A stretch of DNA of 64,000 nucleotides from Streptantibioticus ferralitis. GTDB lineage: Bacteria > Actinomycetota > Actinomycetes > Streptomycetales > Streptomycetaceae. Under the pieces are notes generated by a model. The model ran no database searches. It was given only the letters and a program-made list of their open reading frames with translations, and had not been told where the DNA came from. Shown here in pieces: positions 56,469-62,162 of this stretch. The position numbers and the translations under genes are program-made. The stretch is taken from contig NZ_JARHTQ010000002.1 of NCBI RefSeq assembly GCF_029223525.1, forward strand, positions 62,001-126,000, read 5' to 3'. How positions within the stretch are numbered: the first letter of the stretch is position 1; each line of letters opens with the position of its first letter.

Positions 56469-56603
56469 GGCGGAATGCCTCCAAGCATGGGCTGGAAGGT
56501 GTCCTGAGGGAAATCCTAGGCCCGGTCGGCGGGGACCTGGGGGGCTCGGCCGCGGAAATCGATCGCCGGAGAAAAAACGATCCCGGACTCCGTCACCGGC
56601 GGC

Positions 56604-56609
56604 TATGCT
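56604..56609 (+). promoter_or_regulatory. Likely -10 box of the thrS leader transcript
   Basis: TATGCT lies seven bases before the leader-peptide ATG at 56617, so the leader may be translated from a leaderless transcript. No good -35 match is seen 17-18 bp upstream. Confidence 0.5.
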
Positions 56610-56616
56610 CGGGATC

Positions 56617-56667
56617 ATGAAGCGCGCTGCTGTGACGACGACGCCGGACCCAGTCCCGGCGCGCTGA
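56617..56667 (+). CDS. Threonine-rich leader peptide (putative attenuator)
   Basis: A 16-residue ORF reading MKRAAVTTTPDPVPAR, with three consecutive ACG (Thr) codons at 56635-56643. It ends 14 bp before a perfect terminator hairpin and lies upstream of a threonyl-tRNA synthetase gene. This is the arrangement of ribosome-mediated attenuation: stalling at Thr codons when charged tRNA-Thr is short would prevent terminator formation. CGCCGG (56642-56647) can pair with CCGGCG (56656-56661), and CCCGG (56655-56659) with the terminator arm. Confidence 0.75.
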   Translation: MKRAAVTTTPDPVPAR

Positions 56668-56680
56668 CAGCTGTCATCGA

Positions 56681-56712
56681 GAAGCCCCGGGGCGAGTGCC
56701 CCGGGGCTTCTT
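56681..56712 (+). terminator. Attenuator terminator before thrS
   Basis: A perfect 13-bp stem (56681-56693 with 56698-56710), loop GAGT, followed by TTGTC. It lies between the leader-peptide stop and the thrS ribosome site, so transcription must pass it to express thrS. Confidence 0.82.
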
Positions 56713-56750
56713 GTCGCGGTCACTCGCACCGGCACGACGAGGAGACCGTG

Positions 56751-57980
56751 ATGCGAACCCCCGTACACGACCACCGCAAGCTCGGCCGCGAGCTGGACCT
56801 TTTCGACACCGACCCGCTGATCGGCGCCGGGCTGCCGTACTGGCTGCCGGGCGGCGCCGCGGTGCGGCACGCCCTGGAGGAGTACATCAGGGAGGCAGAA
56901 CGGCGGGCGGGCTACCGCCATGTCTACTCGCCCGTACTGGCAAAGCGCGAGTTGTACGAGATCTCCGGGCACTGGGCGCACTACAGCGAGGACATGTTCC
57001 CCGCGATGGAACTGGGCGGTGAACAGTTCGTGCTGCGGCCCAGCCTGTGTCCGCATCACGCGCTGATCTACCGTTCCCGTGAGCACAGCTATCGCGAACT
57101 TCCGCTGAAGATCGCCGAGTTGGGCGGAATGTATCGCTCGGAACTGTCCGGCGTCCTGGGCGGGCTCACCCGGGTGCGGGCGATCCAGCTCAATGACGCC
57201 CATATCTTCTGCACCCTCGACCAGGTCGCCGACGAGGCCCGAGCGGCGCTGGAACTCATCGACCGCGCTTACCAGGCCCTCGGCATCCGCGCGGCGCGCT
57301 ACCGCCTCTCGCTGCCCGGGCCGGGCGGGAAGTACGTGTCCGATCCGGCGATGTGGCAACGTGCCGGTGCCCTGCTGACCGGGGTACTGGAGTCCATCGG
57401 GGCGCCGTACCAGGCCGAGGAGGGGGAGGCCGCCTTCTACGGACCGAAGATCGATGTGCAGATCGCCGACGCCAGCGGCCGTGAGTCGACCCTGTCCACC
57501 GTTCAGGTCGACCTCCACCAGCCGCGCCAGTTCGACCTGCACTACACCGGGTCCGACGGGGCGGCGCACCGGCCGGTGATGGTGCATCGCAGCGTCATCG
57601 GCAGCGTCGAGCGGGCGGTCGCCCATCTCATCGACACCCATGGTGGGGCGTTTCCCGGCTGGCTCGCGCCGGTTCAGGTGGTGGTGCTGCCGATCTCCGA
57701 CGCCGAACTGCCCTACGCCGAGGCGCTGGTGCGGCGATGCGTCGGGCTCGGCCTGCGCGCCGAGTTGTCCGCCCCGGAACGCGGCTCGCTCGGGGCGCGG
57801 GTGCGCGCCGCGCGGCTGGTGCCGTACCAGGCCGTCGTCGGCGCGAAGGAGGCCGCCGACGACCTGGTGGCACTGCGGCTGCGCGATGGCCGCCGGATCG
57901 ACGCGCTGCCGGTGTCCGAAGCGGTCGCCCGGATCGCGGCGCTGGTCGGCCGCAACTGCGTTGACCTGTGGGACGAGTGA
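56751..57980 (+). CDS. Short threonyl-tRNA synthetase (catalytic and anticodon domains only)
   Basis: A 409-residue ThrRS lacking the N-terminal TGS and editing domains found in the usual enzymes of about 650 residues. The catalytic core (about 15-305) keeps the three zinc ligands: Cys in LRPSLCPHHALIYRS, His in QLNDAHIFC and His in MVHRSVIGSVERAV. Motif 2 is YRSELSGVLGGLTRVRAI. The anticodon domain (about 310-405) begins APVQVVVLPISDAE. GAGGAG six bases before ATG 56751 fixes the start. It is probably a paralogue, either an emergency enzyme or one insensitive to a ThrRS inhibitor such as borrelidin. Confidence 0.88.
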   Translation: MRTPVHDHRKLGRELDLFDTDPLIGAGLPYWLPGGAAVRHALEEYIREAERRAGYRHVYSPVLAKRELYEISGHWAHYSEDMFPAMELGGEQFVLRPSLCPHHALIYRSREHSYRELPLKIAELGGMYRSELSGVLGGLTRVRAIQLNDAHIFCTLDQVADEARAALELIDRAYQALGIRAARYRLSLPGPGGKYVSDPAMWQRAGALLTGVLESIGAPYQAEEGEAAFYGPKIDVQIADASGRESTLSTVQVDLHQPRQFDLHYTGSDGAAHRPVMVHRSVIGSVERAVAHLIDTHGGAFPGWLAPVQVVVLPISDAELPYAEALVRRCVGLGLRAELSAPERGSLGARVRAARLVPYQAVVGAKEAADDLVALRLRDGRRIDALPVSEAVARIAALVGRNCVDLWDE

Positions 57981-61838: not shown

Positions 61839-62162
61839 TCAGGAGGGCAGCCCGGGACCGCTGAGCGGAGTGAACTCGACGACTTCCGGACTGCCGGAGA
61901 GCATGTTCAGCACATCCTCGACGGTGAACTCGGCCTCCGGCGTCACGGCGGCCAGGGCGGCGGTGACACTGTCCTGGTCAGCCCACATCTCGACGACCCG
62001 GACCGTGTCCGGATCGTTCTTGTCCTCGCAGATGACGTACATCTGGCAGCCAGGTGCCGCCGCCAGCGCCGCCGCGACCCTCGACAGGATGTCAGCCAAC
62101 TCGCCTCCCCTGCCGGGTTGAGCGCGCATGGTGACGAAACGGCCGATCGTAGGTGTGGACAT
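61839..62162 (-). CDS. Antibiotic biosynthesis monooxygenase (ABM) domain protein
   Basis: A 107-residue single ABM domain of the dimeric ferredoxin-like fold: GRFVTMRAQPGRGGELADIL, GCQMYVICEDKNDPDTVRVV and EMWADQDSVTAALAAVTPEA. Such proteins range from quinone-forming monooxygenases to haem-degrading enzymes and often lack a cofactor. The substrate is unknown. It stands alone at the edge of the remnant-rich patch to its right. Confidence 0.85.
   Translation of the reverse strand: MSTPTIGRFVTMRAQPGRGGELADILSRVAAALAAAPGCQMYVICEDKNDPDTVRVVEMWADQDSVTAALAAVTPEAEFTVEDVLNMLSGSPEVVEFTPLSGPGLPS

Follow-up and report, generated by a model that had tools for sequence, protein, structure and literature searches.

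A short threonyl-tRNA synthetase (ThrRS) gene in Streptantibioticus ferralitis follows a small ORF with a run of threonine codons and a strong hairpin, which raises the question of whether threonine attenuation governs a second ThrRS, as an earlier note on this DNA had proposed, and what such an enzyme might be for. We analysed the locus within a stretch of 64,000 nucleotides (NZ_JARHTQ010000002.1, positions 62,001 to 126,000; hereafter the window, to which all coordinates refer), together with its orthologues. Alignment of these loci indicates that the element is a genuine and conserved leader-peptide attenuator, specific for Thr and with an orthologue already published, and Thr-codon attenuation is, on sequence grounds, very probably how the leader acts. 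We further consider it likely that this ribosome-mediated attenuator responds to a shortage of ACG-reading Thr-tRNA by switching on a backup ThrRS that is induced by stress, with control probably acting at both transcription and translation.

The synthetase gene runs from GTG 56748 or ATG 56751 to 57980 (+), giving 409-410 aa depending on the start, and scores above the cut-off of TIGR00418 (thrS). In a domain search the protein proved to consist of a class II core plus an anticodon-binding domain, with the TGS and editing domains missing, in line with the editing-less enzyme that had been described from the sequence. A full-length ThrRS is also encoded in the same genome (44% identity), which makes the short copy an accessory paralogue. 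The catalytic Zn ligands of E. coli ThrRS (Cys and His positions) are presumably retained, as they appear to be in the short-ThrRS alignment. Among the primary enzymes, two (L204, L211) have N-termini unlike those of the other ten, possibly a second full-length ThrRS lineage.

The leader ORF spans 56617-56667 (+), 16 codons from ATG 56617 to TGA 56665-56667 (ATG AAG CGC GCT GCT GTG ACG ACG ACG CCG GAC CCA GTC CCG GCG CGC TGA; peptide MKRAAVTTTPDPVPAR, then stop), with the three consecutive, putatively regulatory ACG codons that the earlier note had picked out at 56635-56643 (+); every leader read carries at least two Thr codons. A -10 element, TATGCT (56604-56609, +), lies 7 nt 5' of the leader ATG, and the TAnnnT spacing is 7 nt in 75/79 orthologous leaders, 6 nt in 4/79, and 6-7 nt in 91/95 whole-genome loci. 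Because the -10 ends exactly 7 nt before the ATG, as in those 75 leaders, the transcript is predicted to be leaderless, a start previously held to be possible. The orthologous thrL of S. lividans TK24 (SLIV_19412/19410; MKRVRPFLETTPGFVPAR, then stop), located before thrS, is leaderless by RNA-seq (PMC8079986), and this start at the leader ATG contradicts the idea that transcription begins downstream of the hairpin. The same report gives the peptide, the transcription start and one hairpin, and calls termination unclear (PMC8079986). In one of the genomes compared, the identical thrL peptide (MKRVRPFLETTPGFVPAR) is encoded ahead of a ThrRS that shares 75% identity with that of the window, with the same hairpin, the same -10 spacing and a GAAATC box. 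Since the published thrL peptide precedes an orthologous short ThrRS, the attenuator in its basic form has already been described for one species.

Of 174 orthologous loci from several actinobacterial families, 173 have the Thr codons, the hairpin and the two pairing segments, and all 173 keep the core ACNACGCCGG...CCGGCGC; the single exception sits at a contig end, and two core-less loci (one contig-truncated, one with its leader replaced near a contig start) were excluded from the 174. This conservation supports the earlier note's reading of the leader as a threonine attenuator, which had hinged on it. Among 79 near orthologues, ACG ACG ACG CCG NNN NNN GTC CCG GCG CGC TGA is nearly fixed, wobble positions included, the variable codons being the two inside the loop of the A:B helix described below. 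The first Thr codon is ACG in 76 leaders and ACT in 3, and the second and third are ACG, figures that are partly conditioned by the search pattern, whose regex required those two. In two loci (L144, L153), a 1-nt loss that shifts the frame after the Thr codons alters the peptide C-terminus and spares the RNA segments, which suggests that selection acts on the RNA and not on the peptide. An NCBIfam search assigned the leader peptide, extended in frame, to no family, and an Rfam scan at gathering thresholds found no match in the window, T-box included. The element is absent 5' of 12 primary thrS genes, where only weak, chance-level matches occurred. About 77 nt 5' of the primary thrS ORF stretch of S. 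ferralitis itself (L212) lies a 4-codon ORF (ATG ACC ACG GCT TAG; MTTA, then stop), rejected as a thrS leader, being not conserved and missing from the 11 other primaries. At two loci (L130, L137; G130, G011) 209-259 nt separate the hairpin from the aligned ThrRS start, a distance that suggests an N-terminal extension or a longer leader.

Between the ORF and the synthetase gene lies a perfect 13-bp hairpin, as the earlier note had it (GAAGCCCCGGGGC-GAGT-GCCCCGGGGCTTC, 56681-56710, -30.3 kcal/mol), beginning 13 nt after the leader stop. Perfect inverted repeats of at least 13 bp with loops of 3-8 gave 9 overlapping counts in the window and 0 in 8 Markov controls, and the leader RNA folds with z = -6.0 relative to dinucleotide shuffles. 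The 5' arm, segment C (56681-56693, +), contains the core CCGGGGC at 56687-56693; the loop GAGT occupies 56694-56697 (+) and the 3' arm, segment D, 56698-56710 (+). Across orthologues, the core that pairs with segment B stays constant and the outer pairs vary with compensating changes, among them one-base losses on one arm that are matched on the other. Upstream, segment A (CGCCGG, 56642-56647, +; invariant in alignment A2) would pair, when no ribosome sits on it, with CCGGCG (56656-56661; -10.8 kcal/mol) in segment B (GTCCCGGCG, 56653-56661, +; retained in alignment A2), a pairing proposed before. The alternative partner of B, the terminator arm, had also been named correctly, but this antiterminator helix (B:C, GUCCCGG/CCGGGGC, -16.7 kcal/mol including a nested stem) comprises 7 bp, not 5. 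The A:B, B:C and C:D helices are mutually exclusive.

Ribosome stalling, termination, Shine-Dalgarno opening and induction would, we infer, follow from this arrangement. A WblC-type promoter would start transcription at the leader ATG. Were the ACG codons read freely, a ribosome at the leader stop would cover B, ending just before the terminator arm and leaving C:D possible, or A:B would form; in both cases C:D would follow and transcription would end. A ribosome stalled on ACG would instead cover A and leave B free, so that B:C, the fold predicted for RNA ending at the end of the 5' arm, would form and block the terminator. As B:C is weaker than C:D, antitermination must be kinetic. The putative terminator hairpin is strong and conserved, and its U-tract is weak (CUUGUCGC). 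That most orthologues have fewer U still at this place could be taken to indicate a mainly translational attenuator, in which the GC hairpin seldom terminates and chiefly hides the loop segment C', with Thr limitation governing Shine-Dalgarno access; several actinobacterial cis-elements do act on translation, for example ileS T-boxes (PMC1262725). We nevertheless find this improbable, given a hairpin of 12-15 bp, very GC-rich and at -30 kcal/mol. Actinobacteria, moreover, are generally known to be able to terminate without long U-tracts. With U-tracts this weak, intrinsic termination is at most putative, a reservation that the S. lividans authors shared (PMC8079986).

Read-through RNA contains a further hairpin. 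The ThrRS Shine-Dalgarno sequence (GAGGAG, 56740-56745, +), within segment F (56738-56748), is enclosed in a stem at 56717-56748 (+; CGGTC.CTCG ... CGAG.GACCG), and the aligned pairing CGGUC.CUCGC ... GCGAG.GACCG is kept in 91.9% of cells, with 21 double-change cells versus 10.5 in shuffles. Segment E (CACTCGC, 56721-56727, +) may pair either with F or with C' (GCGAGTG, 56692-56698), which contains the terminator loop: C':E (GCGAGUG with CACUCGC) is paired in 96.7% of cells, with 14 double-change cells versus 2.5 in shuffles (0/500 shuffles). A covarying Shine-Dalgarno hairpin is thus accompanied by an alternative pairing that would free the Shine-Dalgarno sequence. A first pairing scan around this site was ambiguous, CUUCGC also pairing there, and was superseded by alignment A3. 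Loops GAGU, GGGU, AAGU and GAGC tend to match strands ACUC, ACCC/AUCC, ACUU and GCUC; loop position 12 changes together with strand position 45, including where this disrupts Shine-Dalgarno pairing, and strand position 43, which has no partner in the Shine-Dalgarno hairpin, changes together with loop position 14. At GGGU loci, E tracks the loop and forfeits its match to the fixed Shine-Dalgarno A. These loci and the 43/14 tracking argue that C':E does not simply follow from Shine-Dalgarno pairing. On the ThrRS tree, supported independent contrasts were concordant in about 3/3, 3.6/6 and 1/1 cases and almost never opposite; the C':E covariation is backed by only some 7-8 supported independent contrasts, with p < 0.05 at no single site. 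One locus (L142) has a divergent loop and strand, GCGCAC and GUGCGU, which remain complementary and tied to the Shine-Dalgarno hairpin.

Partial-transcript folding is consistent with such a switch: with B:C formed and the RNA ending past E, the mean P(C':E) was 0.91 (above 0.5 in 105/111 loci), and it dropped to 0.00 if the terminator was formed, as it did (0.00) if the loop was complemented. Should polymerase read through without stalling on ACG, E would pair with the Shine-Dalgarno strand and ThrRS would be poorly translated; once B:C has formed, the freed loop C' would pair with E beside it, and the emerging Shine-Dalgarno would be usable. That antitermination could also open ThrRS translation via C':E is an even bet. 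A classical transcription attenuator alone, with the Shine-Dalgarno hairpin and the loop-strand complementarity playing no regulatory role, would draw on the complete A/B/C/D anatomy and on equilibrium folding, which predicts that the Shine-Dalgarno hairpin forms whichever state is taken (mean accessibility 0.31 and 0.32); shuffled tails often pair the Shine-Dalgarno too, and its pairing is barely above that of GC-rich shuffles (148/151 vs 133-142). We judge this account rather unlikely, as C':E covaries at positions that the Shine-Dalgarno hairpin cannot explain, and because E is present in read-through RNA alone, selection for C':E pairing would mean that it acts once antitermination has occurred. 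The proposed relay from terminator loop to Shine-Dalgarno rests on covariation and partial-transcript folding, because equilibrium accessibility and Shine-Dalgarno pairing by themselves failed to discriminate; and as equilibrium keeps the Shine-Dalgarno closed in both states, the relay needs cotranscriptional kinetics or near-equal energies. In the full-length RNA of the window's locus, the two alternatives are near-equal (-56.1 vs -56.2 kcal/mol).

The synthetase gene itself bears a mark of the same codon. Across 176 short ThrRS ORFs, 1.3% of the Thr codons are ACG, versus 34.1% in neighbouring ORFs (p about 1e-257); 154 of the 176 contain none, and in the window all nine Thr codons of the gene are ACC (9/9). 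Primary thrS genes are lowered too, to a lesser degree (17%). The shares of GCG, CCG and GTG in the short ThrRS ORFs approximate those of neighbours, GGG is near and TCG moderately lower; with most other NNG codons normal, general codon bias does not account for the scarcity of ACG. Thr content is 2.7% in the short ThrRS and 3.8% in the primary core. Since the gene is almost free of ACG, the short ThrRS could be made during the very shortage that would induce it, which lends indirect support to a rise in expression as the cognate charged tRNA falls. The pattern fits selective-charging theory (PMC1183508), with a leader that would read a charging-sensitive isoacceptor and a gene that uses another.

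The promoter offers a second candidate input. A WblC/WhiB7-like box, GAAAAA (56571-56576, +), lies 33 nt 5' of the -10 element, one mismatch away from the published consensus GAAAWY. The published WblC promoter layout (PMC7157823) is GAAAWY, 3 nt, -35, 16-19 nt, -10 and a start 7-8 nt on; at the short-ThrRS leader a GAAAWY-type box stands 3 nt 5' of the -35 at this spacing, with GAAA there in about half of the loci. Counted at about 33 nt 5' of the -10, GAAA occurs in 42/77 orthologues (1.4 in shuffles) and 49/91 whole-genome loci (0.8 in shuffles), and a clear WblC-type box is missing from several loci. That report lists S. coelicolor thrS2 among WblC-activated genes, and we infer thrS2 to be an orthologue of the short ThrRS gene. 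With a box present and WblC activation published there, the gene might be constitutive or under WblC alone, the hairpin an mRNA stabiliser and the small ORF incidental; that the Thr codons, the identity of the codons and the alternative helices hardly vary from family to family, and that ACG has been removed from the downstream gene, makes this extremely improbable. The full proposal, in which a helix chain couples antitermination to Shine-Dalgarno opening before an ACG-purged gene, yielding a backup synthetase with two inputs (the ribosome-stress regulator WblC, and ACG-tRNA), we put forward tentatively, at a little under even confidence.

How, then, does this element compare with known systems? 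S. lividans thrL-thrS shares the orthologous leader peptide and gene, the hairpin, the -10 spacing and the leaderless transcript, and the published report is without the alternative helices, Shine-Dalgarno hairpin, C':E pairing, WblC box and ACG purge. The Streptomyces leuS, trpS and trpE attenuators (PMC1262725) likewise combine a leader peptide of cognate codons with an antiterminator and a terminator, whereas in the short-ThrRS element covariation adds a tie to a Shine-Dalgarno hairpin; that 2005 survey found no threonine-related structure (PMC1262725). S. coelicolor thrS2, in the WblC/WhiB7 regulon, shares the GAAAWY box 3 nt 5' of the -35 and the TAnnnT -10, and the accessible part of its account (PMC7157823) describes no attenuator. 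Anabaena thrS2 (PMC4787780), too, supplements a constitutive ThrRS with a conditional one that proofreads weakly, but it is zinc-controlled by Zur, encodes a protein of about 75 kDa and has no described leader peptide. T-box leaders of Firmicute thrS respond to uncharged tRNA-Thr too, whereas here a leader ORF would do the sensing. As far as the literature consulted shows, a 2010 survey aside (Lopatovskaya et al., cited in PMC4833913), sequence comparison points to several new features: the WblC-like GAAA box at this leader (relative to the published thrL account), the C':E link from terminator loop to Shine-Dalgarno hairpin, and the purging from the gene of the codon that its own leader reads. 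These, the Shine-Dalgarno hairpin itself and the published thrL go beyond the earlier note. They suggest a route by which a soil actinobacterium might keep charging threonine tRNA while translation is under attack: a spare synthetase under an antibiotic-stress regulator and a codon-level sensor, whose own synthesis would escape the shortage. An ACG sensor in front of an ACG-free gene offers a direct test of selective-charging theory in a GC-rich organism and, if true, a terminator loop acting as anti-sequestor would be an unusual coupling of transcription and translation within one leader.

The earlier note had also raised resistance. The short ThrRS could be a borrelidin- or obafluorin-tolerant copy, comparable to the immunity ThrRS enzymes BorO and ObaO and induced when the main enzyme is inhibited, and an inhibited ThrRS would indeed produce the signal sensed. 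At the position equivalent to E. coli L489, nearly all short copies carry Gln whereas 10/12 primaries carry Leu, and the equivalent of M332 is Ser; Leu489 changes in E. coli ThrRS raise the borrelidin Ki 300- to 1000-fold (PMC4389257). Gln, however, also occurs in 2/12 primaries, and Gly463, the obafluorin determinant at which G463S is the resistance substitution (PMC11252418), is unchanged in the short ThrRS. Conserved gene neighbours are lacking beyond the closest relatives. The gene occurs, by count from the listing, in 82/150 Streptomycetaceae genomes, and in 60/395 genomes and 17/138 genera of the class; about half of the sampled Streptomycetaceae is far more than the plausible inhibitor producers. 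We regard a resistance device as unlikely, and a backup role fits the published WblC regulon better than the borrelidin idea, which is plausible but unproven. Where checked, strong matches to a CM derived from a MAFFT alignment and containing few pairs precede short ThrRS genes or their decayed remnants. At three loci (L191, L192, L194), a broken leader ORF or hairpin stands before a truncated or absent ThrRS; these decayed copies reveal repeated gene loss. Another (L178, G096 C1) has two short ThrRS genes with equal scores on opposite strands, at 27.0 kb and 51.5 kb, near the chromosome end.
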